Numbered from the stretch's first letter, positions 252 through 44,834 are shown. The stretch is 46,441 nt of DNA from Candidatus Eiseniibacteriota bacterium (GCA_023129715.1 JAGMBO010000042.1:1-46441), one strand, 5' to 3'. A program made the numbers and translations. Notes: a model not told the origin generated them from the sequence alone.

Positions 252-1268
252 ATGGTGCCTGAACCGAAGCTACAGCATGACCTGCCGCCTGAGCAGGAGC
301 TTGCTCTCATCCGCGCGGCACGCGATGGAGACGCATCCTCCTTTGAGCGTCTGATTCAACCCTACCTTCCGGAGATCGAGCGACTCGTCTGGGGCAAGCT
401 GCCGCGCAGAGATGGCCACCTGGCGGAGGAAGCGGTTCAAGATGTTCTGATTACCGCTTGGAAAGCACTGTCGCGCTATGTCGAGGCCTATCGTTTTCGG
501 AATTACATCTTTGGGATCACCCGCGAGATCATCAAGCGACGCCTGGCCGGCCGGCGGCGGGAGATCCCGACCGATTGGGAGCGCGACGACTCTCCCCTGT
601 CTGGCGAACCAGATCCCCGAACCTACCGATCCGTGACGGGGCGATTGAGGAATCTAGTGGGCGTGGATCGCTTTCCACGTCCGGATGCGAGCATGCTGCG
701 AAGTGCGGTGCTGGGGGAGATGCTCGAAGCCATGCTCGGCTATGGTGGCTACCCTCACCAGCAGATTGCCTTCGCCTACAGTATCGTGCTGTGGGGGAAG
801 CCGAAGCCTCGCCGGCGGACTCAGCCGCAAACCGCCCCGGAGAGACGCGCTGCGCGCGAGAAAGTGCCGATCACAGGGGATCCGGATCGCGTCGTTCGAG
901 AGCTTTCCTCTACTGAGCTTCGGGCGTCTGGCCGGGACTTCCAAGATGAGGTGGCATCGAGGGGCGCTCTGCGAGCGGAAGTTGCTGCGCGGGCTTTCGC
1001 TCCACTGATCTACCGTCTAGGCCTGCGGGGTACGGAGCTCTTCTCCAGGGACCGCCGGTCAGCCCGACTCTTCAGCCAGCTCTCCGCGACAATCATCGGC
1101 CATTCGCTTCTAGAGCAGTATTTCGGCAAGGATCCCCGCAAGTCGATCGCCGATTGGACCGAGCGGGTCAAGACGCGAACCAGGCAAGCACTGCAAGGCG
1201 ACCTAGATCCGGGCAAATCTCCACTTCCTTGGCCATCCGGTCACGAGAAGGCGGAAGCGGGTACGTAG
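252..1268 (+). CDS. ECF-like RNA polymerase sigma factor with atypical C-terminus
   Basis: The protein is 338 aa from ATG 252; a TTG at 243 in the same frame is an alternative and neither has a strong ribosome site. Residues about 15-105 look like sigma-70 region 2: an acidic helix start (LALIRAARDGDASSFERLI), then EAVQDVLITAWKALSRY followed by FRNYIFGITREIIKRRL, the usual core-binding and -10 recognition helices. I do not see a normal region 4 helix-turn-helix. The remaining 200 residues include a basic Pro/Arg stretch and a C-terminal segment (FGKDPRKSIADWTERVKTRTRQAL) that may replace it. It is followed 35 bp later by a zinc-finger anti-sigma-like gene, so it probably directs transcription of the cassette downstream. 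The family call is fairly firm; the target promoters are unknown. Confidence 0.75.
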   Translation: MVPEPKLQHDLPPEQELALIRAARDGDASSFERLIQPYLPEIERLVWGKLPRRDGHLAEEAVQDVLITAWKALSRYVEAYRFRNYIFGITREIIKRRLAGRRREIPTDWERDDSPLSGEPDPRTYRSVTGRLRNLVGVDRFPRPDASMLRSAVLGEMLEAMLGYGGYPHQQIAFAYSIVLWGKPKPRRRTQPQTAPERRAAREKVPITGDPDRVVRELSSTELRASGRDFQDEVASRGALRAEVAARAFAPLIYRLGLRGTELFSRDRRSARLFSQLSATIIGHSLLEQYFGKDPRKSIADWTERVKTRTRQALQGDLDPGKSPLPWPSGHEKAEAGT

Positions 1269-1303
1269 CAGGTCTCGAGGAAGGCAGGCGGGTTAGGGGG
1301 CGG

Positions 1304-2125
1304 ATGTCATGCAACAAGAGGTATGTCATGCATCTTGACCAGAACCGGCTCGTGAAGCTCCTCCGTGGCGGCCTGTCCGAAGAGGATGCGACCCAGGATC
1401 TCGGCCACCTGGCCATCTGCGACCGATGTTCGGAACGCCTCGCGGCTCTGCGCCAGATCTCCTCGGATTTCGAGGGCAGCTGGACGGATCTCCTCGCGTG
1501 GCTGGCAGAACCCGATGCGCCGGCGGAGGCGCAGGAGACTGCTGGTGCCGCCACGCCCGAGAGGCATGCTTCTCCCCTCGCCTTCGCCCTGCGCATCTTC
1601 CTCGATAGCAAGAACCGAATCGCCACTGCGGGAACCCGACTAGTCGAGACGCTCTCGTCGCCGGCGATCGGTGATGCGTTGCGTCTCAGTCCTTCCTATT
1701 CCGGCGTGGGGGATGCTGAGCAAGCACCCGAGGTGAACCGTCGCCGGACCGATGCCGCCGAGATGATTGCTGGGGGCGATGTGGCTGCAGCGCGCAAGGC
1801 TTTGCGTGCTGCAGCGGAGCTGTCTCCGGATGCAGCCGTCATGGGTGGCGTCGAGGGCCTGACGCTTGGCGGAGTTCCCATCGAGGTCGTTGTCGATGCT
1901 GCCCGGCCCGCGATATCGGTGATTGCGCGTGTTGCTGTCGCCCTGCCGCGCGTGAAGGATGCGATCCGCAAAACCGGGGCGGCAGTGCTGATGACTGAGG
2001 ATGGAGCAGCTGTTCGCCGCGAGCCCTTCCGGCCCGTTGAGGGGGCGGACTATCTGCTGGCGGAGTTCGAGGATGTGGGGGATGGAAGCTGGATCATTGG
2101 AGTGGACTTCGACCAGGGGGGCTAG
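1304..2125 (+). CDS. Soluble zinc-finger anti-sigma-like protein
   Basis: The protein is 273 aa. I place the start at ATG 1304, because it follows a purine-rich GGTTAGGGGGCGG; the open frame reaches further upstream into the sigma gene but without a ribosome site. Residues about 35-45 contain HLAICDRC, the H-x3-C-x2-C signature of anti-sigma zinc-binding (ZAS) domains, after a short helical N-terminus. No membrane helix follows, unlike most envelope anti-sigma factors, so it should be cytoplasmic. The C-terminal 90 residues look like a small beta-rich domain (ISVIARVAVALPRVKDAI through DGSWIIGVDF). Pairing with the sigma factor immediately upstream suggests it binds and holds that factor. An alternative is a zinc-finger scaffold without anti-sigma activity. 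Confidence 0.6.
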   Translation: MSCNKRYVMHLDQNRLVKLLRGGLSEEDATQDLGHLAICDRCSERLAALRQISSDFEGSWTDLLAWLAEPDAPAEAQETAGAATPERHASPLAFALRIFLDSKNRIATAGTRLVETLSSPAIGDALRLSPSYSGVGDAEQAPEVNRRRTDAAEMIAGGDVAAARKALRAAAELSPDAAVMGGVEGLTLGGVPIEVVVDAARPAISVIARVAVALPRVKDAIRKTGAAVLMTEDGAAVRREPFRPVEGADYLLAEFEDVGDGSWIIGVDFDQGG

Positions 2126-2219
2126 GGCCTGATCTCTCCTGAACATCCTTTCGCGTGGGCGGACTCCCGAAGTCCGCTCGCCGTCGTATTGTGTTGCGAA
2201 CCCAGGGACTGGAGCGACT

Positions 2220-3569
2220 ATGACAAATCCGGCAGTACGTCATCGCATTCGGAGACCTGTGAAACAAGCACTGCTGCTCTGTCTTACGGTGATGATCACG
2301 ATCGCCATCCACGGATGCGCTGCGCCAGGTCTCTATCAACAGGGGCGGGCGGCCCTCGACCAGGATGACTATGCAGAGGCCGTTCGGTTGTTGGAGATGG
2401 AGACGAAAGAGAACCCTGAACACTGGGAGAGCCACAGAGATCTTGGGATTGCGCTCTACAAGTCCAGTCGATACGCGGAGGCCCGCCGTCGCCTGGAGAT
2501 AGCCCGTGCAGCATTGCCGGACGATGGCGCCACGCTCTTCTATCTGGGGGCGACCTTCGAGCAACTTGGCGAAGATGCCGCAGCCATTGAGGTCTATCGC
2601 CACTACACCGAAGTTGGATCACTCCCGCTGTTCGATACGGGTTTCCGAAGGAAGATGAAGCAACGGATCAACGTGCTCACGCGTCGTCAACTGAGAGAGC
2701 AGGTGCGTGGCCGGATCGAAGAGGAAAGCCGTCACGCCCCATCCGCATCTGCCGAGAACACCATTGCCGTCGTTCCCTTTAGCGTGTCGCGCCCCACCGA
2801 TGTGGCCGCTCCTCTGGCGGCGGCCGTAGCCCACTGGCTCGCGACCGATCTTGCCCAGATCCGTCACCTGCAGGTGGTCGAGCGTCTGCAACTCGATGTG
2901 CTCCTGCAGGAGCTGCAGCTAGCCGAACGGGAAGGGTTGGTGGACCCGGCGACGGCTCCACGGCTTGGCCGTCTAGTCGGGGCGGGGCGCATTGTTGGTG
3001 GCTCGCTGCTACAGCTCACCGAGGACCACGTGCGCATCGATGTCAGTGTAACCGCTTCCGGTGACGGAGAAGTCGAAGTGGCCGAGATGGCCGAAGGAGA
3101 ACTCGATCGCTTCTTCGAAATCGAGAAGCATCTGGTCTTCGCGCTGCTCGAGGGGCTCGGGATCGAGCCATCGCCTGCCGAGCGCAGCAGCATCGAGCAT
3201 GTTCCGACACGCAACCTGCGTGCGATCCTCGCGTATGGGCGCGGCCTGCTGGCCGAACGCCGGGGCGAGTATGGCGAGGCCCAGCTTGCCTATCAAGCAG
3301 CTCTCGATCATGACGGTAGCTTTCACTTGGCCGGCCAGATGCTGGAGGCGGTTCCGAGCGGGTCGACGCCAGATCTCGGGGAGATCGCGGCGACGATCGA
3401 CGCGGAGGTGGGGGATCTAGATCCCGTTGCCAGTGAGCCAGATCGGCTCGAGGTAATCGATCAGATGACGAGCGGTGACATTTGGTCTGTTGAACCGGAA
3501 GACGCGCGCCCGTGGGACCAGATTGGAGAGATCCCCGAGCCACCCGCTCCTCCAGATGCCGGAGACTGA
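2220..3569 (+). CDS. TPR lipoprotein with CsgG-like domain
   Basis: The protein is 449 aa, starting at ATG 2220 behind GGAG. The N-terminus has a basic segment, a hydrophobic helix and a lipobox ending at Cys33 (AIHGC), so it should be lipid-anchored. Residues about 36-140 hold TPR-type helical pairs (YQQGRAALDQDDYAEAVRLL and following). Residues about 180-310 match the CsgG-type fold: IAVVPF, then VVERLQLDVLLQEL, then RLGRLVGAGRIVGGSL. A further TPR-like hairpin follows near residue 345. CsgG-family proteins form or assist outer-membrane secretion channels, but many standalone relatives have no known role. A second CsgG-like gene lies downstream of the kinase, so the two may act in one envelope complex. 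Function beyond domain content is inference. Confidence 0.75.
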   Translation: MTNPAVRHRIRRPVKQALLLCLTVMITIAIHGCAAPGLYQQGRAALDQDDYAEAVRLLEMETKENPEHWESHRDLGIALYKSSRYAEARRRLEIARAALPDDGATLFYLGATFEQLGEDAAAIEVYRHYTEVGSLPLFDTGFRRKMKQRINVLTRRQLREQVRGRIEEESRHAPSASAENTIAVVPFSVSRPTDVAAPLAAAVAHWLATDLAQIRHLQVVERLQLDVLLQELQLAEREGLVDPATAPRLGRLVGAGRIVGGSLLQLTEDHVRIDVSVTASGDGEVEVAEMAEGELDRFFEIEKHLVFALLEGLGIEPSPAERSSIEHVPTRNLRAILAYGRGLLAERRGEYGEAQLAYQAALDHDGSFHLAGQMLEAVPSGSTPDLGEIAATIDAEVGDLDPVASEPDRLEVIDQMTSGDIWSVEPEDARPWDQIGEIPEPPAPPDAGD

Positions 3570-3654
3570 GGCGTCTCGCGGCAGATAGGAAGGCCGATAT
3601 GGGTCATGGCGCATACGCCGAAGATGGAAAGTACCGTATCGATAGGAGCCAATC

Positions 3655-4821
3655 ATGAGTGACCAGGCATTCCGGCGAATTCTGGCCGCGTCTACCACCG
3701 CACTCGCGATTGTCGCGAGCGGCGGCCTTGGGATGCACCCGGCCGCGGCAGGTGATGCCCGTTTGAAGGTCGCGAGCACCTTCGAGAGCTGGAGCTGGGA
3801 TCGCAGTGATACCACCGAAGCAGAGACTTCCGAATGGACGACACGCATCGGCTGTGACTACGAGCTGCTGCGCGGACTGACGCTTCAGATCTTGGGCGGG
3901 TGGGTGCGTGCCGACCAGAACGCGACCCAGGTCGCGAACAGCGCGACAACCGTCAGCGGCCCGCTGGACGTCCGTGCACGCCTGGCCTATCGTGTCGGAG
4001 ATCGCTGGTTGATGCGTTTCGGGATCAATGGGCCGACGGGCATCACGGAGTTCTCGGCGGACGAGATATCACTCGCCCAGACGCTCAGTGCGCGGATCTT
4101 GGCCTTCAATGGACACCGTCTTGGTGAGGGGTTCGACATGGATGCCGGCCTCTCCTATGCCTTTCGCGCGGGCCCGGCAACGATCGGTGTTGGGGCGGGA
4201 TATACGATTAAGGGCGGCTATGATGTCCTCTCCGATGGACCGGAATACGATGCGGGTGATCACATCTCCCTTGCCGGAGGCGTCGATCTGGGAAGCTCTC
4301 GCTATTCCCGCTGGCTGTGGCGCACGAACGCTCGTGCGGTCTTCTACTCGAGTGATCAGCGCGACGGGGTTGAGGTCTATCAAACAAGCGACCGCTATGA
4401 GGTTCAGACTCTGCTCCGCCGCCGATGGCTGATGACTTCCGCATGGGTTTCAGCGACGCGGATCACCTTTGGCAAAGCCCGGGTGCCCGGGGATGACGGG
4501 CTTGTCGATGAGGAGCAGCGCAGTCATGGGAATGAGCTCTATCTCGACATCGGTATACGACGGACTCTCTCCCCCCGCTTCTCAGCACATCTCGGAGTAG
4601 GCGTGCGCACACTGGCCGGGAATGAGTTCGACGAGGGCAAGGCTCGGCGGCGGGACTTCCGGGCAGGATGTCGCTGGAGAACGACCTCTCGCCTAGGACT
4701 CGAGCTGCAAGGCCGATATGGTTCGGGTCGCTTGGACCAACGGACACCGGAACTGAACAATGCCGAGGGATCTGATCTAGCCGGCCTGCATGCAAGCGTG
4801 GCCGCAACGCTGGACTTCTAG
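3655..4821 (+). CDS. Outer-membrane beta-barrel-like protein
   Basis: The protein is 388 aa. ATG 3655 follows TAGGAGCCAATC, a good ribosome site. Residues 1-32 form a signal peptide (basic start, Ala/Leu-rich core, AAAG cleavage region). The mature part is made of alternating polar and hydrophobic strands broken by glycine/aspartate turns, and it ends in VAATLDF, a typical C-terminal aromatic barrel strand. I do not recognise the family more closely; porin-like or transporter-like outer membrane proteins of this length are common. It lies 85 bp after the TPR/CsgG lipoprotein and 4 bp before the kinase, so it is almost certainly co-transcribed with both. Confidence 0.6.
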   Translation: MSDQAFRRILAASTTALAIVASGGLGMHPAAAGDARLKVASTFESWSWDRSDTTEAETSEWTTRIGCDYELLRGLTLQILGGWVRADQNATQVANSATTVSGPLDVRARLAYRVGDRWLMRFGINGPTGITEFSADEISLAQTLSARILAFNGHRLGEGFDMDAGLSYAFRAGPATIGVGAGYTIKGGYDVLSDGPEYDAGDHISLAGGVDLGSSRYSRWLWRTNARAVFYSSDQRDGVEVYQTSDRYEVQTLLRRRWLMTSAWVSATRITFGKARVPGDDGLVDEEQRSHGNELYLDIGIRRTLSPRFSAHLGVGVRTLAGNEFDEGKARRRDFRAGCRWRTTSRLGLELQGRYGSGRLDQRTPELNNAEGSDLAGLHASVAATLDF

Positions 4822-4825
4822 GCAG

Positions 4826-6202
4826 ATGGCCCTCTCCGCTGAACATCTGCGGGATCTCGAGCAGCGGGTTGGAGAAGCCCTCGGGAAGGAGTACGAGAGC
4901 GTAGAGCTGTTCAGAGTCGGTGGGATGGCGGTCATCTTCACCGGCGTCAATCGGCGATTGGGGCGGAAAGAGGCGATTAAGGTATTTCCGGCCCTTGAGG
5001 GGGACGACTGTAGGAGCCTCGAGGGATTCGAGCAAGAATGCAGAGCGCTGGCTGCCCTGAAGCATCCGAATGTGATTACGATTTTCAGTGCCGGCCACAG
5101 CGAGAAGCACGGTCTTGCCTGGCTTGCTGAAGAGTTCATTGAGGGAGAGACCCTCGCCGAGAAGCTTCGCTATGGACCCCTTGGGCTTACGGAGGGTCTC
5201 GCGATCGCCAGAGGCGTCCTGGCAGGTTTGGAACATGCTCATGGCCGAGGAATCCTGCACCGCGACCTGAAGCCCGAGAATGTGTTCCTTGAAGCAGATG
5301 GGCGGGTCATTCTCGCCGACTTCGGGATCGCGCTCATCAGCGGTCCACGTCGCTTTCAGGGCGTGCGTCCAGCCGGCACCGTTGCCTACATGAGCCCGGA
5401 GCAGATCCGCGGAGACGAGCTGGATGTTCGTTCGGACCTCTACTCCTATGGCCTGCTGCTCTACGAATTGTTCACGGGGCGGCATCCCTTCCAGAGTCCG
5501 GATCGGGAGGTGGTCGCCCATCGCCAGGTCCACGAATCTCCGCGGGGACCCAAGGCGATCCAGCCCGACCTTCCCGATGAGCTCTGCGAACTGATCCTCG
5601 ACCTCCTGAAGAAAGATCGGGACAGTCGTCCGCGATCGGCTGGGGACGTCCGGGAGCGTTTGGCACGAATCCAAGTGGGAGAGACAGGTTCGGAAGCGAC
5701 TGGATTGGCGACGAGCCGCGGGGGCGGACGGTCGAGGACCGTCCGCCGGACGGCGCTGGTGACCATCGCGGTCGGCGTTGCTGCGGTGCTGATCGTATGG
5801 TTGAGACCTTGGGAGGAGCCTAATCGGAGTGAAGGACCTCCTGTCGTTCCTGATACCCTGCTCCCCATCGTGGATCCCGGATCCCTAGATCAGGGGAAGG
5901 GAACCGGGGGGAATGGGATCCCCGTCCCGATCCCCGACAGAGTGGACACCGGTCCCTTCTACGTGCGCATCGTGATCACCGGTGACAGGGAAGCGGCGCA
6001 GGGCAGCTTGATCTTCGTCGATGACGAAGAGCAGGAGTTCAGGGCCCCGACAGTGCTGTTCATCGAAGAGGGAGACGATACATTGCGTATCGCCTTGCAG
6101 CGGCACGGTATCGACTTCACCCCATCCGAGCACTGGGTGGAACCTCGGCCGGCAGGTGATACGACTGATGTGACCTTCAAGGCCACGACAACTGTGCCCT
6201 AG
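4826..6202 (+). CDS. Membrane Hanks-type serine/threonine protein kinase with PEGA-like outer domain
   Basis: The protein is 458 aa from ATG 4826, four bases after the barrel gene stop. The cytoplasmic kinase domain spans residues about 25-290, with ATP-anchoring Lys52 (EAIKVF), catalytic HRDLKPEN with Asp147, and DFG with Asp165. The MSPEQ segment takes the APE position, followed by DVRSDLYSYGLLLYEL. The glycine loop is degenerate (VGGMAVIFTG). A basic linker leads to one membrane helix near residues 309-330, then about 125 outer residues whose last 85 resemble a PEGA domain (YVRIVITGD, APTVLFIEEGDDTLRIAL). This layout is that of bacterial receptor kinases sensing the envelope. Its place between envelope proteins suggests they regulate it or are regulated through it. 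All catalytic residues are present, so it should be active. Confidence 0.92.
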   Translation: MALSAEHLRDLEQRVGEALGKEYESVELFRVGGMAVIFTGVNRRLGRKEAIKVFPALEGDDCRSLEGFEQECRALAALKHPNVITIFSAGHSEKHGLAWLAEEFIEGETLAEKLRYGPLGLTEGLAIARGVLAGLEHAHGRGILHRDLKPENVFLEADGRVILADFGIALISGPRRFQGVRPAGTVAYMSPEQIRGDELDVRSDLYSYGLLLYELFTGRHPFQSPDREVVAHRQVHESPRGPKAIQPDLPDELCELILDLLKKDRDSRPRSAGDVRERLARIQVGETGSEATGLATSRGGGRSRTVRRTALVTIAVGVAAVLIVWLRPWEEPNRSEGPPVVPDTLLPIVDPGSLDQGKGTGGNGIPVPIPDRVDTGPFYVRIVITGDREAAQGSLIFVDDEEQEFRAPTVLFIEEGDDTLRIALQRHGIDFTPSEHWVEPRPAGDTTDVTFKATTTVP

Positions 6203-6288
6203 TGGTGCTAGTAGGGGGGAGTCCCTGGGCTGGCCTGGGGTTTGGACACGCCTGCGCCATGGCGCAGAGCTGCGAGAGGAGGGTAAGC

Positions 6289-7359
6289 ATGAACCGGCCA
6301 GGATACCAGCAGTGCCCTTGGGGCGGCGCACACCGCCGTTTTCCTGTGCTGGCTATCTGTGCGCTGTGTCTGATCTTCTCTGCTGCCACTGGTGACGATT
6401 CTCCAGCATCTGATGATGCTCTGCCGACTGCCGCGACTGCAGACATGCTCTATCAACGGGCGCACGATCGCTTCTATGAGGCCCGTTTTCGCGCAGCCTT
6501 GGACGATATCGAACGCTATCTCGAGATGCCGGACCTCTCCACACGCGAGCAGCTCCGCGGATTGGAGTTGCGCGGAGCATGTCATATTGGCCAACGCGAA
6601 CCGATTGCGGCGCGTCGGGCGGTCGAGGGAATGCTCGATCTGGATCCCACTTACCTGATGGACCCCGACTTGGTGTTTCCACCGCTGCTCGAGGTCTACT
6701 TCTCAGTCCTCGATGAGCGGGGAGCCCTGGCATTCCCGCCCGGGATTCATTCCATTGCCGTGGTTCCCCTGAAGAACGCCTCGGTCACCGAGCACGAGGC
6801 GATGGAGCCGCTCGGCATGGGACTGGCTCAGGCCATCATTACAGACATCGTTGGTGCAAGCGAAGTTCGCGTGGTCGAACGGGAGCGGCTGAACTATGTG
6901 TTGGATGAGATCGGCAGGCCCTCCGGAGTAGTTGACAAGAAGACAGCCGCGCGAGCGGGCCGGCTAGTCGGTGCGCAAAGTTTCTTGATGGGCAGTTTCA
7001 CTCGAGTCGGAAAGACGCTGACAATCTCGGTGCATCTTGTTGAGACAGAGACAGGCGTCATTCTGAAGGCACGGTCCATTGATGGTAAGATGGAGAAGGT
7101 CTTCGATCTGATTCGCGAGCTCTCGAAGTACGTCATCGATGACCTCGGGGCGGTATACTCATGCCCGCCTTCCAAGGCTGATGCCAGCGTGCGAGCTCTG
7201 ATGGAATACGCCGCGGGACTCGATCTTCTGGATCGGGGACGCTTTGTCGAGGCCGAAGGGCATTTCCACCTGGCGCTGGAACTCTTTCCCGATTACGAGG
7301 CAGCCGAGCGCCGTCTCCGGCAGATCGTGCCTCTGTTGGCAGCGGGTGAGGAGCGCTAG
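6289..7359 (+). CDS. Second CsgG-like protein with helical-repeat ends
   Basis: The protein is 356 aa. I choose ATG 6289, just after GAGAGGAGGGTAAGC; the frame is open back to the kinase stop but has no ribosome site there. A hydrophobic segment (FPVLAICALCLIFSAATG) at residues about 18-35 should be a signal peptide. A TPR-like helical stretch covers residues about 50-140, then a CsgG-like domain: SIAVVPLKNAS, MGLAQAIITDIV, VVERERLNYVLDEI, ARAGRLVGAQSFLMGSF. A last helical pair lies near residues 300-345. It resembles the CsgG part of the gene at 2220 but lacks that gene's lipobox. Two CsgG-like paralogues bracketing a kinase is unusual and suggests a dedicated envelope machine; no substrate can be read from sequence. 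Confidence 0.7.
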   Translation: MNRPGYQQCPWGGAHRRFPVLAICALCLIFSAATGDDSPASDDALPTAATADMLYQRAHDRFYEARFRAALDDIERYLEMPDLSTREQLRGLELRGACHIGQREPIAARRAVEGMLDLDPTYLMDPDLVFPPLLEVYFSVLDERGALAFPPGIHSIAVVPLKNASVTEHEAMEPLGMGLAQAIITDIVGASEVRVVERERLNYVLDEIGRPSGVVDKKTAARAGRLVGAQSFLMGSFTRVGKTLTISVHLVETETGVILKARSIDGKMEKVFDLIRELSKYVIDDLGAVYSCPPSKADASVRALMEYAAGLDLLDRGRFVEAEGHFHLALELFPDYEAAERRLRQIVPLLAAGEER

Positions 7360-7492
7360 CGGTGGAGGCTGCTGGGAGGCGCCGCTGCGGGCGAGGGACC
7401 CGGACGGGTGCCTGAATGGCGAGGGTCCCGGCCAGACGTTTGAATGGAGGATCCCGAGCATTCTGACTTGCGAACATGGTGGCATTCAACTG

Positions 7493-8935
7493 GTGGCTGT
7501 ACCCAGTACGGCCTTCTCCTTCGCCCTCTATCATGCCGGCCTGACGCCGCTCGTATCCCTCACAGCCAAGAACTCGGGGGCGGTGAGCCGGCCACCCTCG
7601 CGCGCCTCGGTCCGCCTGGATTCGCCGCCGGGGGAATGGAGGATTGCGATTCCGGAGCTTCAGCCCGGCGAGGAAGTCGAACTGACTGTGGAAGTGGCGC
7701 AGGTTGACCGGGATGGTCTGGAACGCATCACGCAGCCGCAGTCCGCGGAGCTCGTGCTCGAGCTAGGGTCGGATCGCGCCCGCGCTCCGCTCGTGCTGCT
7801 CTCTGCCTGGCAATGGCCAGTGTTTCCGGAGGCCCTGCCGGCTCTGGCAGCCTTCGTGCTCAAACACGACGGGATCGTGCGCGCGCTGGTTTCCGAGTCA
7901 ATGCTCTTGGAGCGGAGTGCTGGACAAGGGCCGCAGGGAGCAGGCGAGTCGCGCTCACTTCCTGAGAGAGTGGCAGCAAGACTCGAACGGCTCTACCGGC
8001 ATCTTGCTGAGACCTACGCGATCTCATACGCGGAACCATTGGTCACGCGTCATCCATCCGGGGCGATGTATCAAGACCTTCGCCCCCCCCACCGCATCCT
8101 CTATGATCGCCGGGATTGCCTCGGGGAAGGGACTTGCATCGACTTGACTCTTCTATTGGCCGGGTGTCTCGAGGGAATGGGTCTCGCCCCGCTCATCTTT
8201 CTCAACTGCGACGCTGGAGGTACACCGGCGCATGCGTTCCTTGGAGTCTGGTGCCAGTCGCATGGTCGCTTGCGTCCCATAGTCCGTGACCCCGTTGTCC
8301 TCGAGCGGGCGGTTTCCCAAGGGGATCTACTGCTGATCGAGACGACAGGGGTCTGCGCCGGGGGGCGGCGGCTTGAGTTCGAGCAGGCGATTAGCGAGGC
8401 CCGCGGTCACTTGACAACAGGGGAGATGCTTGTTGCACTCGATGTGGCCGCGCTGCGGCCCCCGAACGGCAGGGTGCTTCCCATGGAGACTCCTCTCGAG
8501 CCAGTTGTGCTGCGGGCCCATGCCGAGGTTGCCGCCCTTGGCGAGCGCCTTGGGAATCCGATGTTCGAGACTCTCCACCTGCTCTATGGCCTCATCAGGG
8601 CGGGAGGGGAGGTCACGTGCCGGGTTTTGGCGGAGAGTGGCGTCTCCGCACCGCGGGTCGTGGAAGAGGTCGAACGGATTCTATCCCAGCGCCGCAAGGA
8701 CCGTCCGCGCGGACGGACCGTCGGGTACGATCGCTGCGTGAGTGACGCAGCCGAGACTGCCCGTAGCGAGGGATCGACCGTGGTGCGCGAATGCGACCTC
8801 TGGTGGGCCATTCTCTGGAGTCGCAGCGGCGCAGTCAGGGAAGCACTTGAGGCGGCCGGTTGCCCCCAAGCGGACCTCGTTCCAGCCCTCGACAGAATCT
8901 GCCCCCACAGCCGACGTACAACCACGATTGCCTGA
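7493..8935 (+). CDS. Transglutaminase-like protein fused to a double Clp_N domain
   Basis: The protein is 480 aa if translation starts at GTG 7493 (GGTGG seven bases upstream). The frame continues upstream into the preceding gene without a good start, so the N-terminus is uncertain. Residues 1-110 look like an all-beta domain (FSFALYHAG, VSLTAKNSG, PGEEVELTVEVAQ). Residues about 160-280 carry a transglutaminase-like core with Cys215 (GTCIDLTLLL), His247 (AHAFLGVW) and Asp266 (IVRDP), the expected order and spacing. Residues about 337-395 and 410-465 are two Clp repeats (AHAEVAALGERLGNPMF and its partner YDRCVSDAAETARSEGS), the substrate/adaptor-binding N-domain of Clp chaperones, here without any ATPase. 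No signal peptide is visible. Likely a cytoplasmic peptidase or cross-linker with a Clp-type docking module. Confidence 0.7.
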   Translation: MAVPSTAFSFALYHAGLTPLVSLTAKNSGAVSRPPSRASVRLDSPPGEWRIAIPELQPGEEVELTVEVAQVDRDGLERITQPQSAELVLELGSDRARAPLVLLSAWQWPVFPEALPALAAFVLKHDGIVRALVSESMLLERSAGQGPQGAGESRSLPERVAARLERLYRHLAETYAISYAEPLVTRHPSGAMYQDLRPPHRILYDRRDCLGEGTCIDLTLLLAGCLEGMGLAPLIFLNCDAGGTPAHAFLGVWCQSHGRLRPIVRDPVVLERAVSQGDLLLIETTGVCAGGRRLEFEQAISEARGHLTTGEMLVALDVAALRPPNGRVLPMETPLEPVVLRAHAEVAALGERLGNPMFETLHLLYGLIRAGGEVTCRVLAESGVSAPRVVEEVERILSQRRKDRPRGRTVGYDRCVSDAAETARSEGSTVVRECDLWWAILWSRSGAVREALEAAGCPQADLVPALDRICPHSRRTTTIA

Positions 8936-9128
8936 CGTACTATCTATCTCTCGTTCTTGCAATGCGTTGTGAGGCTGACATGCCTGCCGTGGGTCCATCC
9001 ACGGGGCGGTTCTGGCAGTCAGTACTCCCGGATCAGTTCCCGATGCACCTATCGCGAGAAGTCCCCTCATTCCGCGTAGTCCAGGCGGGGTTGAAAGGAC
9101 TTGGGGTTTCGGAACTGAGGGGGGGGCG

Positions 9129-9572
9129 ATGAGGCGTGTCGCGGGATTCGAGGGGATCGCTCTGACCATGGTCATGGTGCTTATCGGGATGCTCGTCCTG
9201 GGGCCGGAGGAGGAGACGGCGAAGTGGCACGACAGCTCCCGTGACTTGCCGAGCGATGACTCCAAGACGACCACGATTCCTCTCGGCGCCGCTGCCGTTG
9301 CCATCGGAGCCGCAGTCGTCATCGCCGTGACGGGCGGATCGGGTGACGACGCGGCTGATTCTGAGAACGACGATGCGGACAATTCGATCCGGGATGCCTG
9401 GGATGATGAGGCCAGCATTCCGAGTGCCCGCACCGAGACGGAGTTCACCTCGATCCTTCAAGTCCCTGTCTTGAACGGGTCCACCCAGCCCACCGCTTCC
9501 GGCACTTCAGTTCAGCCTCTTTGCGGTCTTGGGTGTGACAAGCTGGTCCTTGGGGTCGCCATCTCGCTCTAG
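9129..9572 (+). CDS. Small acidic membrane protein of unknown function
   Basis: The protein is 147 aa, with ATG 9129 directly after a G-rich ribosome site (GAGGGGGGGCG). It has an N-terminal hydrophobic helix (residues about 9-27) and a second Ala/Val/Gly-rich helix (residues about 53-69) that ends in GGSGDD. A strongly acidic stretch follows (DDAADSENDDADNS), and the C-terminal tail carries two cysteines (LCGLGC). I do not recognise a family. Its position between the transglutaminase-Clp gene and a barrel gene, all on the same strand, suggests it belongs to the same envelope cassette. The C-terminal part overlaps no other supported gene. Confidence 0.5.
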   Translation: MRRVAGFEGIALTMVMVLIGMLVLGPEEETAKWHDSSRDLPSDDSKTTTIPLGAAAVAIGAAVVIAVTGGSGDDAADSENDDADNSIRDAWDDEASIPSARTETEFTSILQVPVLNGSTQPTASGTSVQPLCGLGCDKLVLGVAISL

Positions 9573-9720
9573 CCTTCTCGAATGGGAGAGTACGATGTAT
9601 TCACTGCGTTTCACGAGGATCGTGAGCCTGACCAGCGGGTTCGCCATCCTCTTTCACCGTGCACGAATCCTGATCGCGAGCCATCACGACAGGATCGACC
9701 ACGAAAGGGAGGAGAGACAG

Positions 9721-10377
9721 ATGTCTACTGTCAGGCACTTCTTCGGGATGATTGCACTTGTCCTGTCCTGTCTTGCCTCACCGACTCAGGCGCAGGATGC
9801 CCTGCCGGATGACTCGCGCAATCCCAACTACTTCGCGCTGGGCGCCGGACTCCTCGTGGGATCCGGCTTTCACGACGCCCTGGTCGATGCCTATTCTGAA
9901 GACTACAACATCTCTGGAGGCGGTGGTTTCTTCGACATGCAGGCAGGCTTTGGCATCAGCGTCGACAGACACTTCTACATTCTTCCGCGGCTGCGTCTCC
10001 TGGGCTGCCCGATCGCGATCAAGGGATACAGCGGCTTCCCGCCCTCCAAGGACGCAGCGATCATCCTCATGCCTGGGGTCTACGGGCGCTACGCCGTCAG
10101 CGAGGAGATGCCTTCGTTCTACGCCGACGCAGGGATCAGCCTGGTATCTCCCAGTTGTGATCTCAATCGGATCTCCTGCGAGTCCGGGGGTTTGGCCCTG
10201 GGCGCTGCCCTTGGCTATGCCCACGGATCTCATGAGTTCGAGATCAGCTACACGAAGATCCCGATCGATCTCGTGGATAGTGAGTACGACTATGACTATG
10301 GCGCTTCGTCCGCTACCAAGGAAACCGATTGGGGCGGGGTTAGCTTCACGTACAGACGCCGCTGGACATTCGACTAG
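9721..10377 (+). CDS. Small outer-membrane beta-barrel protein
   Basis: The protein is 218 aa. ATG 9721 follows GGGAGGAGAGACAG and starts a clean signal peptide (residues 1-23, cleavage after TQAQ). An in-frame ATG at 9595 with GGGAGAG upstream would add 42 residues, but it would bury the signal peptide. The mature protein has Gly-rich strand/turn patterns (FALGAGLLVGSGF, GGGFFDMQAGFG, LALGAALGYAHG) and ends in GVSFTYRRRWTF, the terminal aromatic strand of opacity-type eight-stranded barrels. It closes the run of same-strand envelope genes that begins with the sigma factor. No specific function can be assigned. Confidence 0.65.
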   Translation: MSTVRHFFGMIALVLSCLASPTQAQDALPDDSRNPNYFALGAGLLVGSGFHDALVDAYSEDYNISGGGGFFDMQAGFGISVDRHFYILPRLRLLGCPIAIKGYSGFPPSKDAAIILMPGVYGRYAVSEEMPSFYADAGISLVSPSCDLNRISCESGGLALGAALGYAHGSHEFEISYTKIPIDLVDSEYDYDYGASSATKETDWGGVSFTYRRRWTFD

Positions 10378-10692
10378 TGGGGAGTCGCCGGAGGCGGCGC
10401 GGCTCGCATCGCTGCGTCACCTCCTTCTGCAATGTTCCGGTTGCGGTGAGATGACGTCGGAACGTGATTCTCACAAGGGGATTCTTGAGATGCGCAAGGT
10501 CAGATGCTACCATAGACGCTAGCCATGAAACTCGGAGTGGGGGTGTGAGATATGTAGGTGTTCCGTCTGCGAAGCGTGACGCCTCGGTTGCCCAGACAGG
10601 CAACGTACTGTTCGCTTCCGGAAGGTAGGCACCCCCGACACGAGTCCTCTCATTCGATCAACGCGATGGTTTTCCTGCGGAGGACAGACACC
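10378..10692 (+). other. Intergenic leader of the RCC1-like gene
   Basis: This 315-base stretch has no gene I believe. It holds a possible promoter at 10485-10513 and, in the probable leader, a perfect 6-bp hairpin GTTGCC-CAGACA-GGCAAC at 10587-10604. I could not match the leader to a known riboswitch class. Confidence 0.4.
10485..10513 (+). promoter_or_regulatory. Possible sigma-70 promoter for the RCC1-like gene
   Basis: TTGAGA and TACCAT are separated by 17 bases, about 180 bases before the ATG at 10693. The -35 box matches four to five of six bases and the -10 box is weak. Confidence 0.35.
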
Positions 10693-12738
10693 ATGAGACG
10701 GATTGGATTGGTCGTTGGTCTGATGTGCCTGTGCGCTTCTCTCTCTGGCACAAGTGTTGCGCGCGGGAAATCCGCCGGGTCCATCGTGGGATGGGGCTCT
10801 CAGGTCGTTGTGCAGCAGACGGCGCTCGACAGCCTCGTGGCGGTCGCGGCGGGCACTTATCACAATCTAGGTCTCAGGTCCAACGGGACGATCGTAGCCT
10901 GGGGAAACAGCGACATTGGGCAATGCAATGTCCCCACACCCAACGCCGACTTCGTGGCGGTTGCCACGGGCCTGTATCACAGCCTGGGTCTCAAGTCCGG
11001 CGGGGCGATCGCGGCCTGGGGTGACAACTACGATGGCGAGTGCGACGTTCCCCTGCCGAACACCGACTTGGCGGCGGTCGCCGCGGGCCTGTATCACAGC
11101 GTGGGTCTAAGGTCCGACGGGACAGTCGCGGTCTGGGGATGGAACGACTATGGCCAGTGGAACATCCCCGCGCCCAACACCGGCTTCATGGCGATCGCTG
11201 CGGGTGCGAGGCACAACCTGGGTCTTAGGTCCGACGCAACGATCGTGGCCTGGGGCCATAACGACTACGGCCAGTGTGACGTCCCCGAGCCTAACGCCGA
11301 CTTCGTGGCGGTCGCCGCGGGCAGTCAGCACAGCCTTGGCCTCAAGTCCGGTGGGACGATCGTGGCTTGGGGACGAAACTGGGAGAATCAATGCGACGTC
11401 CCCGAGCCTAACACCGGCTTCGTGGCGGTCGCCGTGGGCGAGGCTCACAGCCTGGGCCTCAAGTCCGGTGGGACGATCGTGGCATGGGGGCGCAACAGTG
11501 CTGGCCAGTGCGACGTCCCCACGCCTAACGCCGACTTCGTGGCGGTCGCCGGGGGCACATATCACAGCCTGGGCCTGAAGTCCGACGGGACGATTTTGGC
11601 CTGGGGATGGAACGGTGGCCTTGGCCATTCCGGCGTTCCCGCGCCAAACACCGACTTCGTGGCGGTCTCGGTGGGCGGTGGGCACAATCTGGGACTTAGG
11701 TCCGACGGGACGATCTTGGCCTGGGGATGGAACTACTATGGCGAGCGCGAGGTTCCTGCGCCGAACGCTGGCTTTGCGGAGGTCGCCGCGGGCCTGTGTC
11801 ACAGCCTGGGTCTCAAGTCAGACGGGTCGATAGTGGCCTGGGGATGGAACGGGGATGGCCAGTGCGACGTTCCTGGGCCTAACACCGACTTCGTGGCGGT
11901 CGCCGGGGGCGAGGCTCACAGCCTGGGCCTCAAGTCCGATGGGACGATCGTGGCTTGGGGGGCCAACAGCGCTGGCCAGTGCGACGTTCCTGGGCCTAAC
12001 ATCGACTTCGTGGCGGTCGCCGGGGGCGAGGCTCACAGCCTGGGCCTGAAGTCCGACGGGACGGTCGTCGCCTGGGGCCGGAACTACTTTGGCCAGTGCA
12101 ATGTCCCGGCGCCGAACGCTGGCTTCGAGGCGCTCGCCGCGGGCACATATCACAGCTTGGGCCTAACGTCCGACGGGACGGTCGTCGCCTGGGGCGACAA
12201 TTACAGTGGCCAGTGCAGTGTCCCCGTACCGAACGCCGGCTTCGTGACGGTCGCCGCGGGCATTCATCACAGCCTGGGCCTCAAGTCCGATGGGACGATC
12301 GTGGCATGGGGACGGAACTGGGAGAGTCAGTGCGACATTCCGGCGCCGAACGCCGGCTACGTGGCGGTAGCTGGAGGCGAGTATCGCAGCCTGGGCTTGA
12401 GAGGTGTTTCCTCAATTGCCGTCGAGGAACCTGGGCTTGGCGCTATTCCCAGAGCCGCGAGGCTCGCGATAATCTCTCTCTCGCCCAATCCGTTCAGCCG
12501 CAACACAGAAGTTTCTTTCGAGACCCGAGGATCTGGATACGTAGCCATGGATATCTATGACGCATGCGGACGGCGTGTTGGAACAATGCCTCTTGGAGTG
12601 TTGGGATCTGGTCCCCATCGGGCCCGATGGGATGGACGTGATGTGAGTGGAAACGCCGTGAGTCCGGGGGTGTACTTCATGCGTTTGCGCGGCAGTGGGA
12701 GAGAGTCTCGAGCGGTGAAGGTCGTTCTTGGTCGCTAG
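10693..12738 (+). CDS. RCC1-repeat surface protein with FlgD-like C-terminal sorting domain
   Basis: The protein is 681 aa. ATG 10693 follows GCGGAGGACAGACACC and opens a signal peptide (RIGLVVGLMCLCASLSG). Residues 48-555 are 13 consecutive 39-residue RCC1-type repeats with consensus FVAVAAGxYHSLGLKSDGTI followed by VAWGxNxxGQCDVPxPN; one copy has an extra residue. This predicts a beta-propeller, probably two stacked blade sets. After a partial repeat comes a C-terminal immunoglobulin-like segment (ISLSPNPFSRNTEVSFET, then WDGRDVSGNAVSPGVYFMRL). It is of the FlgD/Por-secretion tail type seen on exported proteins of FCB bacteria. The protein is likely surface-displayed or secreted. The repeats are almost identical at DNA level, which implies recent homogenisation. 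Function (adhesin, enzyme scaffold) is not readable. Confidence 0.85.
   Translation: MRRIGLVVGLMCLCASLSGTSVARGKSAGSIVGWGSQVVVQQTALDSLVAVAAGTYHNLGLRSNGTIVAWGNSDIGQCNVPTPNADFVAVATGLYHSLGLKSGGAIAAWGDNYDGECDVPLPNTDLAAVAAGLYHSVGLRSDGTVAVWGWNDYGQWNIPAPNTGFMAIAAGARHNLGLRSDATIVAWGHNDYGQCDVPEPNADFVAVAAGSQHSLGLKSGGTIVAWGRNWENQCDVPEPNTGFVAVAVGEAHSLGLKSGGTIVAWGRNSAGQCDVPTPNADFVAVAGGTYHSLGLKSDGTILAWGWNGGLGHSGVPAPNTDFVAVSVGGGHNLGLRSDGTILAWGWNYYGEREVPAPNAGFAEVAAGLCHSLGLKSDGSIVAWGWNGDGQCDVPGPNTDFVAVAGGEAHSLGLKSDGTIVAWGANSAGQCDVPGPNIDFVAVAGGEAHSLGLKSDGTVVAWGRNYFGQCNVPAPNAGFEALAAGTYHSLGLTSDGTVVAWGDNYSGQCSVPVPNAGFVTVAAGIHHSLGLKSDGTIVAWGRNWESQCDIPAPNAGYVAVAGGEYRSLGLRGVSSIAVEEPGLGAIPRAARLAIISLSPNPFSRNTEVSFETRGSGYVAMDIYDACGRRVGTMPLGVLGSGPHRARWDGRDVSGNAVSPGVYFMRLRGSGRESRAVKVVLGR
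10834..12357 (+). repeat. 13 tandem 117-bp repeats inside the RCC1-like gene
   Basis: The array is 1524 bases: 13 units of 117 bases plus one extra codon in unit 7. Neighbouring units share long identical runs, for example the two copies near 11880-12050, so unequal crossing-over or gene conversion seems recent. Confidence 0.9.
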
Positions 12739-12936: not shown

Positions 12937-14199
12937 ATGAAACATAGACTCGCTGAGAGTTTCGAAGCTGCCTACTTGAAACACTTTTGGAAGTTTCAAC
13001 GCTGTCAATGGGAGAATTATGCGGATGATGCTCAACATGCCTTGTCTGTCATTGACAAGGAGATGTTTGAATTGGTGACTTCGTATAGGGATACGTTTGA
13101 GCTCTCTGGGCGTAGGGGGGAAGTATTCAAGGCGATTATGGCCCGTGAGCTAGTTGAAAGACACCCGGACGTGTCACGACTCAGAAATCGCTTGGATCTG
13201 GATAAGCAGAGTCGCTACTATGGGGGCGAATTCTCAGAGAGAGACCTGGCACGGAGGATTAAGCCGGACGTTCTGGAATTAATGCGGACCAGAAACCATC
13301 TCTCTCAGAAGCTTGGATTTCCGTCCTATGTTGCTCTGGTACTGTCCACTGAAGAGGTCGAACTGGAATCTCTTATTGCTCTGCTTGAGCAGCATCTACA
13401 AGACCATCTCTCTACGGCCAGAACCCTGGTCAGAACCCATCAAATCACTTTGACGACAAGCTGGCTCTCCGGTCTCGACACTATCGGCTGCCTCGATTCC
13501 GATTTTAGCCCAATTGGGTCGATTGAGCAGTTTTGGCAGAGAATAGGGTTTGCTCACCTCAAGGGTACGATTCCTCTGATCTCGCAGGAACAACCGACAG
13601 TGTCAGGGTATGTTGGTGTTCTGTCAGTTCCTGACGATGTCCGAATCCTGGTGAGATCGGTTGACACTTTGGGACGTTGGCTCACCCTGTTTCATGAGCT
13701 GGGACACGCAACAGCGCACGCTTTGAATGAAGAGAATGGAATCTTCACGACATGGACAAGTGTTTACGATGAAACGATGGCCGAGGTGCTCGAATCCATT
13801 GCTTCGTTCATGCTGTTGGATGAACCGAACCAGCAATCGGCAAGAGAATTGAAAATACTGACAGGTACACGGTGCGCGATCAGCGGTCTCTTTGAATTCG
13901 CCCTATGGGAAAACCCTTCAGATGCAGAACGTCTTTATGTTGAGCACTTCAACAGGCTGGGCCTGGAAGTTCAAGATCCAGAAGTTTGGGCTCTTGACAC
14001 ATTCCGTTATCTTGATCCCATATACATCTTTAATTATGTTATCGGTCATCAGGTCGCTGATCGTACACTCAAGTTTCTGAACAAGGAATACGGCGACGAG
14101 TTTTCAAAGTGGGGAGATTGGTTGAAGCACAATTACTACGCTGATGGAAGAAGGCGTTCCCTACGAGAGAAGACGGCGATAGTAGGGAGTGTTGTGTAA
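12937..14199 (+). CDS. M3-like zinc metallopeptidase (oligopeptidase family), probably acquired
   Basis: The protein is 420 aa, with ATG 12937 and GAGGGAG upstream. The zinc motif HELGH is at residues 253-257 (LFHELGHATAH). Glu283 or Glu286 in DETMAEVLES is 26-29 residues later, where M3 peptidases place the third ligand. The N-terminal half is helical with RNHLSQKLGFPSYVAL, typical of the M3/M2 clan, and the C-terminus has the family's DPIYIFNYVIGHQVAD helix. It is shorter than usual oligoendopeptidases (about 600 aa), lacking most of the N-terminal arch. There is no signal peptide, so it should be cytoplasmic. Base use is clearly AT-richer than all neighbours (many AAA, GAA, TTT, ATT codons), and it stands alone between long spacers, so horizontal transfer is likely. 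Confidence 0.75.
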   Translation: MKHRLAESFEAAYLKHFWKFQRCQWENYADDAQHALSVIDKEMFELVTSYRDTFELSGRRGEVFKAIMARELVERHPDVSRLRNRLDLDKQSRYYGGEFSERDLARRIKPDVLELMRTRNHLSQKLGFPSYVALVLSTEEVELESLIALLEQHLQDHLSTARTLVRTHQITLTTSWLSGLDTIGCLDSDFSPIGSIEQFWQRIGFAHLKGTIPLISQEQPTVSGYVGVLSVPDDVRILVRSVDTLGRWLTLFHELGHATAHALNEENGIFTTWTSVYDETMAEVLESIASFMLLDEPNQQSARELKILTGTRCAISGLFEFALWENPSDAERLYVEHFNRLGLEVQDPEVWALDTFRYLDPIYIFNYVIGHQVADRTLKFLNKEYGDEFSKWGDWLKHNYYADGRRRSLREKTAIVGSVV

Positions 14200-38555: not shown

Positions 38556-39845
38556 ATGGCGGTGAAAGGTTCGTTCAATGCGTTCGAGATGGCGCGTACC
38601 CAATTCGATAAGATCGCCGATTTGATCGGACTGGACACTGGGGCGCGGGAGATGCTGCGCACCCCGATGCGTGAGTATCACTTCAATATCCCCGTGCGCA
38701 TGGACGACGGCAACGTCAAGGTGTTCCGCGGATTTCGCGTGCAGCACAACGACGCCCGGGGACCGGCCAAGGGAGGGATTCGCTTCCACCCGCAGGAGAC
38801 GATCGACACCGTGCGGGCCTTGGCGATGTGGATGACCTGGAAGTGCGCCGTGGCCAACATCCCCCTCGGTGGCGCCAAGGGTGGCGTCATCTGCGACCCG
38901 CACCATCTCAGTGCACGGGAACAGGAGGCGATCTGCCGCGGGTGGATACGTCAGGTAGCGCGCGATGTCGGTCCGGTAACCGACGTTCCGGCACCCGATG
39001 TCATGACCAGCTCTCAGCATATGCTCTGGATGCTGGACGAGTATGAGGCGATCAACGGCGGCCGCTATCCCGGCATGATTACGGGGAAGCCGGTCGGAAT
39101 GGGGGGCTCTCTCGGCCGTACTCAGGCGACTGGTTATGGCGTGATCTACGCGCTGCGTGAGGCCCTCAAGGAGAACAACGTCCGTCCCGAGGATACCACC
39201 GCGAGCGTGCAGGGGTTCGGCAACGTCTCGCAGTATGCGATCGAGCTCTATCATCAAATCGGAGGCACGACGATCTGCGTCTCCTGCTGGGATCAAGATG
39301 ATCAGACCTCCTATGCCTTCCTCAAGAAGGACGGGGTAGATCTCGCCGCCCTTCAAGGGATTGCCGACCACTTCGGCGGCATCGACAAGCAGAAGGCGGC
39401 TGATTTAGGCTATGAGGTCTTGCCGGGTGAGAAGTGGCTCGACCAGGAAGTCGACGTTCTCATACCCTCGGCGCTTGAGAACCAGATTACCGCCGAGAAC
39501 GCTGAGGCCATTAGCAAGCGGGTCAAGATCATCGCCGAAGGGGCCAATGGCCCGACGACTCCCGAAGCCGACGCGATCATCCACAAGCGCGGGATTTTCG
39601 TAATCCCTGATTTCCTGGCCAATGCCGGCGGCGTGACCTGCAGCTACTTCGAACAAGTTCAAAGCAACATGAACTACTTCTGGGAGATGGACGAGGTCCT
39701 GGGCAAGCTCGACGTCAAGATGACCGCAGCCTACATTGCCGTGAGCGAGCTGGCGCGGAAGCAGAACCTCTACATGCGCGACGCCGCCTATGTCGTGGCC
39801 ATCAACCGAGTGGCCCAAGCCTGCCACGATCGTGGTTGGGTCTAG
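38556..39845 (+). CDS. gdhA: Glutamate dehydrogenase (Glu/Leu/Phe/Val dehydrogenase family)
   Basis: The protein is 429 aa, with ATG 38556 behind AAAGGGGATTTGTC. It interconverts 2-oxoglutarate plus ammonia and glutamate with NAD(P). The substrate site shows RGPAKGGIRFHP (Lys72), MTWKCAVANIPLGGAKGG (Lys96 and catalytic Lys108), and TDVPAPDV with the catalytic aspartate. The Rossmann motif VQGFGNVSQYAI and the late EGANGPTTPEAD and IPDFLANAGGVTCSYFE segments fit the hexameric GDH of about 420-430 aa. It is preceded by PFOR and followed 59 bases later by the first PPDK_N protein, so nitrogen assimilation is linked here to pyruvate and PEP chemistry. Confidence 0.95.
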   Translation: MAVKGSFNAFEMARTQFDKIADLIGLDTGAREMLRTPMREYHFNIPVRMDDGNVKVFRGFRVQHNDARGPAKGGIRFHPQETIDTVRALAMWMTWKCAVANIPLGGAKGGVICDPHHLSAREQEAICRGWIRQVARDVGPVTDVPAPDVMTSSQHMLWMLDEYEAINGGRYPGMITGKPVGMGGSLGRTQATGYGVIYALREALKENNVRPEDTTASVQGFGNVSQYAIELYHQIGGTTICVSCWDQDDQTSYAFLKKDGVDLAALQGIADHFGGIDKQKAADLGYEVLPGEKWLDQEVDVLIPSALENQITAENAEAISKRVKIIAEGANGPTTPEADAIIHKRGIFVIPDFLANAGGVTCSYFEQVQSNMNYFWEMDEVLGKLDVKMTAAYIAVSELARKQNLYMRDAAYVVAINRVAQACHDRGWV

Positions 39846-39904
39846 CAGGTACCGGCGGCGGCTTGAGTTGGCCCACGATCGGGGCCGATACCACGGGGGT
39901 TAGT

Positions 39905-44600: not shown

Positions 44601-44834
44601 TTCCGCGGTTCACAAGATCAGCGGGATGACTTGCTCAATTGGCTGGAGGGTTGGAGTCTCTGTCTGGCAGAGATGAACTACCTGCGCACGGGATATCGAA
44701 CCGAGGGGCTTCTGGACGTCCATCTCGTGACCGATGCGGACATTGAGAAGCGGACCAGCTATGCTTCGAAGATCGGTGCGGTGACGGATGCCGCCCGCGA
44801 GGTTCCTCTGCAGAGCAAGAAGGCGAGGGCCTAA
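41643..44834 (+). CDS. GAF - PPDK_N - nucleotidyltransferase fusion protein
   Basis: The protein is 1063 aa, starting at GTG 41643 inside the end of the preceding gene. Residues about 15-135 are GAF-like (IKELNCLYDVEELL to VRLIKNLAQRIGHYLL). Residues about 150-340 are helical and not assigned. Residues about 345-690 are a PEP-synthase-type ATP-grasp domain (GKLGGKGAGLLLAQ, IVRSSSLLEDRLGTAFSG with Arg448, LIQEVVGVRVGKYYLP, FYLLQCRPQ). Residues about 770-850 carry GPGRWGSRGD (Gly792) and GTHFFQDL, the same module as the smaller neighbour. Residues about 930-1050 are a minimal nucleotidyltransferase domain with GS at 968-969 and ESDIDLLI, Asp980 and Asp982. The phosphohistidine and PEP domains are missing. 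It is likely a sensor-coupled phosphotransfer or nucleotidyl-transfer enzyme; targets are unknown. Confidence 0.8.
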   Translation: MAKRPTQTRKGLLISLRERIKELNCLYDVEELLNRADLALDAVLPVVVEKIATGWQYPDICRVELTYGDQTYRSPDFATSPWGLSAEIAVQEERVGTLKLYYIEERPQAEDGPFLEDEVRLIKNLAQRIGHYLLYQRIKDVRQNWAAAGDKEADTRDEWRAPIHLLRGTDHDLYLRVARKLLNHLCRVGIAEARVMLAHPDTDSDEGTIEVADENVPGPRRQSDDRLLMTDQLFELAAVHIGSQEILAHVQKWMQEDKANFFIKTLYSPRSSLAEIADAIRRFHHFVADGENLPESTRKTLRVTLTQRLLTEQLDFVRTAKEYLEIGDFVDLIERVIMPAGSHGKLGGKGAGLLLAQCVLQRAPCPDHPVGEIKVPRTWYLASDGLADFVGYNDLQDVIEQKFKDIDQVRQEYSNVIQLFKNSSFTPRVISGISVALDAFGEVPLIVRSSSLLEDRLGTAFSGKYKSLFVGNQGTKDKRLAGLLDAIAEVYASTFGPDPIEYRREHGLLEFNEEMGILIQEVVGVRVGKYYLPAFAGVAFSNNEFRWSPRIRREDGLIRLVPGLGTRAVDRVSDDYPVLIVPKQPNLRANVAIDEVIRYSPRKVDVINIERNTLETLLVADLVRECGRDFPGLERVFSVLKNDMLQKPVPLMLDPEEDELVVDFGGLVSGTPFVKHLGNMLDLLQQHLHTPVDVEFAHDGRDFYLLQCRPQSFAGDAAPAPIPKEVPEADIIFSANRYVSNGWVPDITHIVYVDPSAYGEIQNRSDLQAVGRAVGQLNRLLPKRQFILMGPGRWGSRGDIKLGVSVTYADISNTAMLIEIARQQGGYVPDLSFGTHFFQDLVESRIRYLPLYPDDSGVFFNGGFLRGAPNLLGTILSDFAHLADAVRVIDVGAASEGRVLRVLMNADLNEALGLLVAPDEDTTAPREPVAGVRAAPQQYWRWRLRMVERIAADLEAERFGLVALYVFGSTKNATAGPESDIDLLIHFRGSQDQRDDLLNWLEGWSLCLAEMNYLRTGYRTEGLLDVHLVTDADIEKRTSYASKIGAVTDAAREVPLQSKKARA

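Follow-up and report, generated by a model that had tools for sequence, protein, structure and literature searches.

A sigma factor, anti-sigma factor, receptor kinase and transglutaminase-Clp_N protein encoded at one locus of Candidatus Eisenbacteria, very probably a single signalling system

The window analyzed here, 46,441 nucleotides in length, is one entire contig, G000:C124, from a genome of 4.8 Mb, and the relatives found for it in the named collection belong to Candidatus Eisenbacteria. Nine same-strand ORFs lie between positions 252 and 10377, and we confirmed the domains first noted in them using Pfam, NCBIfam and conserved residues. The contig edge is 243 bases 5' of the first gene, sig. 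A promoter and terminator scan gave no operon ends, since the number of sites was not above that in shuffled sequences. The genes, with the two domains of tgc, are as follows.

252-1268, plus strand: sig, ECF-like sigma factor with region 2, a very divergent region-4-like stretch and a C-terminal extension; alternative start TTG at 243
1328-2125, plus strand: asf, predicted soluble zinc-binding (ZAS-type) anti-sigma factor; C-terminal domain without assigned fold
2220-3569, plus strand: csg1, putative lipoprotein, TPR and CsgG-like
3655-4821, plus strand: omp1, outer-membrane beta-barrel
4826-6202, plus strand: pkn, Hanks Ser/Thr receptor kinase with one transmembrane (TM) segment
6289-7359, plus strand: csg2, CsgG/LpoB-like, hydrophobic N-terminal segment
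7352-8935, plus strand: tgc, ProA N-terminal transglutaminase-like (TGL) module plus Clp_N; start codon uncertain; reading frame open from a TTG at 7244
7769-8461, plus strand: transglutaminase-like domain of tgc (C262, H294, E330)
8477-8872, plus strand: complete two-repeat ClpC/ClpB-type N-domain of tgc (PDB profile and Foldseek)
9129-9572, plus strand: smp, small membrane protein; outside the conserved unit
9721-10377, plus strand: omp2, putative small barrel; outside the conserved unit

Judged by conservation, the locus proper ends with tgc and has seven genes (sig, asf, csg1, omp1, pkn, csg2 and tgc). The original prediction was that all nine form one system. That holds up for these seven, based on an order kept in three families and on co-inheritance of sig and tgc over 385 genomes. 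It does not hold for smp and omp2, which have no relatives in related loci and were ruled out as cassette members; omp2 also gave no Pfam match, its barrel assignment coming from the sequence itself.

Elsewhere in the window, an RCC1-repeat protein gene (10558-12738; 13 repeats matched, FlgD_ig-type domain at the C-terminus) adjoins the cassette and has no member in related loci. It is followed by a possibly acquired HEXXH-type peptidase-like ORF (12937-14199; GC 0.547 versus about 0.62). Two adjoining large ORFs at 39836-44834 have, by eye, a PEP/pyruvate-dikinase-type look, the second with a nucleotidyltransferase-like C-terminus.

Among the genes of the locus, only sig matched Sigma70_r2 (Pfam, 9e-10), and it scored 99.4% against ECF region 2 in profile-profile comparison. 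The same comparison gave no match for region 4. The AF2 model (pLDDT 72.5) matched sigmaE region 2 in Foldseek and places helices at residues 147-164, 168-180, 211-218 and 223-236. An invariant PHQ motif occupies the place of PxQ in region 4, and the helices and the PPHQ spacing are compatible with a divergent region 4. In a Chloroflexi member of the family, the spacing from PP to the next Ile equals what we take to be that of a canonical region 4. The C-terminal extension of about 100 aa carries a conserved DW motif. Acidic residues of region 2.2 are largely retained (AEEAVQD, EPDDVLQ, DAEDLAQE). A search for a common bipartite promoter motif upstream of sig found one in 3 of 7 sequences, the same as in shuffles.

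The neighboring gene, asf, encodes a zinc motif (H, H-x3-C-x2-C) whose residues H7, H32, C36 and C39 are invariant in eight relatives. The window copy had no Pfam zinc-finger match; its relatives are matched by zf-HC2. Since asf also adjoins sig in the relatives read, motif and adjacency together predict a ZAS-type anti-sigma partner of sig. We found no clear TM segment in asf (best 19-residue mean 1.58), which makes site-2-type intramembrane cleavage unlikely.

The kinase gene, pkn, matched Pkinase at 2e-41 (Pfam) with the AIK, HRDLKPEN and DFG motifs intact. It apparently encodes an active membrane kinase with a TM segment at residues 308-326 and a C-terminal part that is presumed to be periplasmic. 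Its relative in G005 is 35% identical over nearly the full length. Another stretch of G005 (L246:5237-9005) encodes a csg2-like protein, a kinase and a PP2C consecutively, making one more locus of the kinase/phosphatase/CsgG-like type.

Around pkn lie the envelope genes. Both csg1 (25.9 bits) and csg2 (28.1 bits) scored above the Pfam CsgG cut-off of 20.8, covering only positions 33-102 and 4-99 of the 210-position profile, its N-terminal half or less; csg1 also matched TPR. Curli-type secretion or a pore formed by this CsgG-like pair is unsupported by such a partial profile match. The barrel gene omp1 matched OMP_b-brl at 6e-7 (Pfam). Relatives of csg1 stand at the same position in G005 (41%) and G009 (36%); those of omp1 (43% and 33%) and csg2 (44% and 38%) occur in the same two genomes and, more weakly, in G006, where the csg2 relative is beside the kinase. 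The suggestion that two CsgG-like proteins and two barrels are parts of the system is therefore borne out in part: csg1, omp1 and csg2 hold a conserved order, while omp2 falls out and the block is separable, with paralogous copies that stand without kinase, sigma factor or tgc. Because G007, G006, G009, G028 and contig C180 of the window's own genome have csg2-csg1-omp1 triads with neither kinase nor tgc, we regard the csg/barrel part as an attached, separable module. Such triads (L239, L240, L241, L242 and L243) are found repeatedly in Eisenbacteria, where they form an envelope module of their own.

The NCBIfam model "anti-phage protein ProA" (NF058533) matched tgc aa 56-378 with its positions 1-314 (2.4e-32, 111.5 bits); the model is 1903 aa long with a score cut-off of 1500, and the match stops at profile position 314. 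All eight TGL-Clp_N relatives scanned matched the same ProA part, the G006 copy weakly. The transglutaminase-like part of the window protein had no match in Pfam or in a PDB profile search, and of 24 relatives, 16 matched Pfam DUF553 and 11 Transglut_core. C262 and H294 are invariant in those 24, and position 330 is mostly Glu and in some Asp. By these residues tgc is predicted to carry the Cys-His-Asp/Glu triad of transglutaminase-like peptidases; the fold could also catalyze something other than proteolysis. The protein also matched Clp_N (Pfam, 9e-7), and aa 376-507 matched ClpC N-domains at 6e-9 in the PDB profile search. The AF2 model of tgc (pLDDT 89.8, pTM 0.88) matched 8b3s, 5hbn and 2y1r over the Clp N-domain part (TMt 0.74-0.82), and the best 50 Foldseek matches listed were all Clp/Hsp100 N-domains. 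In five relatives (L033, L034, L073, L074 and L075), a phosphothreonine-binding FHA domain is fused N-terminally to tgc; the window copy has no FHA domain.

Two further TGL genes were seen. In a second tgc copy of G006 (L035:11476-12798), the catalytic Cys is replaced by Arg (GTREEIAL); this copy lies alongside an intact one, and the two may be an enzyme/pseudoenzyme pair. In the window's genome, G000:C131 (L037:976-15606) encodes a paralogous ProA-type TGL protein of 473 aa without Clp_N, beside an AAA+ ATPase, a Hanks kinase and an LPP20-like protein. CsgG/FlgO-like, Band-7/zinc-ribbon and FHA genes are also near this paralogue, perhaps a second kinase/TGL system.

A search of 385 genomes with full-length sig gave eight matches at E<1e-80, the next best being 4e-20. 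Full-length sig and TGL-Clp_N were both present in exactly seven of the 385 (G000, G005, G006, G007, G009, G046 and G333), a count that excludes matches without the Clp_N part (the ProA-sized G074, G155 and G279, plus G139). The two distributions are identical, and most tgc loci also have a kinase. If genomes were independent, the chance of such identity would be 9e-8 within the class (6/47) and 4e-15 overall, figures that are overstated, since the genomes share ancestry and the same members served to build the profiles. Among three genomes reached through named loci, the sigma factor was present in two and absent in one (L073).

The gene order of the window recurs in two more families of the order, G005 and G009, each pieced together from contigs, and is retained at 33-51% identity across the three. 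G005 has sig-asf-LVIVD at the end of contig C222, LVIVD-csg1-omp1-pkn-csg2-FHA on C105, and tgc opening a third contig. The LVIVD ends share a 974-base overlap at 92.6% identity, which makes adjacency of C222 and C105 likely. G009 has csg1-omp1-pkn (residues 10-147) on C35, pkn (145-222)-csg2-FHA-PP2C-FHA-tgc on C89, and sig-asf on C127. The arrangement differs in G006, where one strand carries csg2, pkn, omp1 and tgc and the other, alongside, the second tgc, sig and asf. A transporter gene stands between tgc and sig-asf in G007, and G046 has sig-asf-tgc; no kinase was found near tgc in the stretch read of either.

A smaller core, sig-asf with adjoining tgc and usually a Hanks kinase, occurs in other Eisenbacteria, in a second phylum (G333 and G388) and in a Chloroflexi MAG (G387). 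Both G333 loci (L072 and L074) read sig-asf-tgc-...-kinase. The G388 locus (L071) has a contig break inside sig, with asf-tgc-TM-kinase following. The Chloroflexi MAG has sig-asf-Clp AAA+ on one contig and tgc-x-kinase on another, and its Clp AAA+ unfoldase gene carries Clp_N and overlaps asf by 4 bases. G386 (L073) has FHA-tgc with a kinase nearby; the full-length sig family was not found there. The order is thus not confined to this genome, nor for the most part are these genes scattered in unrelated places elsewhere; the core recurs in distant bacteria.

From these comparisons of sequence, the locus is very probably one signalling system, apparently an undescribed one. Its unity is well supported, and we infer the mechanism. 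Our best reading, to which we give a probability of about 0.45, is an envelope-sensing phospho-relay in which the TGL-Clp_N protein controls sigma release via proteolysis of the zinc-binding anti-sigma partner. The envelope proteins (csg1, omp1 and csg2) and the presumed periplasmic part of pkn would sense the state of the cell surface, and pkn would phosphorylate a partner. In several relatives, the reader of the phosphorylated partner would be an FHA domain, either fused to tgc or carried by a neighboring protein, with PP2C resetting the relay in G009; in the window, which has no FHA domain, the kinase would target tgc, asf or sig directly. The Clp-type N-domain of tgc may bind the substrate or dock to a Clp machine. 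Activated tgc would then cleave or deliver soluble asf, and the freed sig would transcribe its regulon, possibly including the operon itself.

The phospho-relay is supported by the conserved order, the co-inheritance of sig and tgc, the FHA fusions, the catalytic Cys and His, and the Clp AAA+ gene overlapping asf in G387. It is weakened by L073 lacking the sigma factor, G007 and G046 lacking a nearby kinase, the window lacking FHA, the Arg copy in G006 and the lack of a shared sig promoter motif. More tentatively, the locus may represent a new class of anti-sigma control, present in several phyla, in which an unusual ECF sigma factor is freed from a soluble anti-sigma factor, with no intramembrane proteolysis, by a phosphorylation-gated, dedicated cysteine peptidase (an anti-phage TGL module joined to a Clp substrate-recognition domain).

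A conflict-system role is a serious rival, if a somewhat unlikely one. Here tgc would be the effector of a conflict or stress system, its peptidase cleaving invader or host targets, and the kinase, sigma and anti-sigma factors would govern when it is deployed, an arrangement already proposed for other peptidase-STAND-sigma systems. The TGL module of tgc is that of anti-phage ProA and is shared with the HEPN/TGL/helicase giants, for which protein cleavage in defence was suggested (PMC3710099). STAND-NTPase-like regions are present in the L071 and L072 kinases, the latter also with TPR repeats, and an ECF sigma gene is often part of EACC2 conflict systems (PMC8195603). However, the locus encodes none of the usual effectors (nuclease, helicase, TIR or others), and the Eisenbacteria version includes envelope genes. 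PADLOC likewise gave no match for tgc, sig or asf, and matched the kinase only to generic kinase models.

The free-standing triads described above, together with the csg-less sig-asf-tgc loci of G046, L072 and L074, could also mean that there are two independent modules, with sig-asf-tgc as a regulator and csg1-omp1-pkn-csg2 as an envelope/kinase unit, neighbors in one Eisenbacteria order that do not act on each other. This is improbable given the kinase at most tgc loci, with or without csg genes, the FHA fusions to tgc, and an order that survives such sequence divergence in three families.

Less probable still is that pkn activates sig by direct phosphorylation, as with PknT-EcfP and PknS-EcfK of ECF43, and that tgc is accessory. 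A receptor kinase and an ECF-like sigma factor do share the locus, and ECF43 kinases have varied extracytoplasmic domains (PMC13147305; PMC8999054). ECF43 sigma factors, however, have no acidic DAED motif in region 2.2 and are kinase-partnered, usually with no anti-sigma gene. In the window the kinase is present, but the acidic residues are largely retained and a ZAS anti-sigma gene adjoins sig, and direct phosphorylation is less likely for both reasons. A chance neighborhood with no functional meaning is very improbable and already contradicted, because the order is conserved and two rare families are distributed identically over 385 genomes.

The locus is thus real and conserved and is very probably a signalling unit, apparently an undescribed one, built from known types of parts, and the phospho-relay is a plausible mechanism for it. 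Kinase-linked sigma factors have mostly been predicted from gene neighborhood, and few are understood. Like ECF43 (EcfP-PknT and EcfK-PknS), the locus encodes a transmembrane Hanks kinase with an ECF-type sigma factor; it differs in its anti-sigma gene, acidic region 2.2, TGL-Clp_N protein and the C-terminal extension of sig. It resembles the Class I (ZAS) pairs SigE-ChrR and SigW-RsiW in the zinc motif, the adjacent genes and sigma region 2, but region 4 of sig is hardly recognizable and the locus also holds a kinase and TGL-Clp_N. ChrR is soluble and RsiW is not; asf is apparently soluble like ChrR.

A search of the literature, confined largely to openly accessible journal papers, found no description of ProA or of such a gene set, in line with the original prediction. 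Conflict systems of the peptidase/STAND kind, EACC2 and VMAP among them, repeatedly include peptidase, FHA, STAND NTPase, ECF sigma and ClpN components (PMC8195603, PMC7159879). The present combination is not described in the portions of those papers available to us, and our locus differs in having envelope genes and no EAD or vWA-MoxR; neither EACC2-caspase nor vWA-MoxR parts were among the Pfam matches of the locus or of the relatives scanned. The complete two-repeat N-domain of tgc is like that of ClpC and the N-domain-only ClpC2, but it is fused to a TGL domain, whereas that of ClpC is fused to AAA+ domains. TGL-Clp_N is thus a defined, co-inherited protein that could link kinase signalling to anti-sigma proteolysis. 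In ProA (NF058533; the TGL-SF1 helicase-Vsr giants, PMC3710099), the first ~314 residues, comprising the TGL domain and the preceding beta-rich part, match tgc 56-378. In contrast to ProA, tgc has a ClpC-type N-domain instead of the helicase/nuclease body, and is encoded alongside a sigma factor and a kinase. Finding this anti-phage N-terminal module in a signalling setting may help explain its role in ProA.
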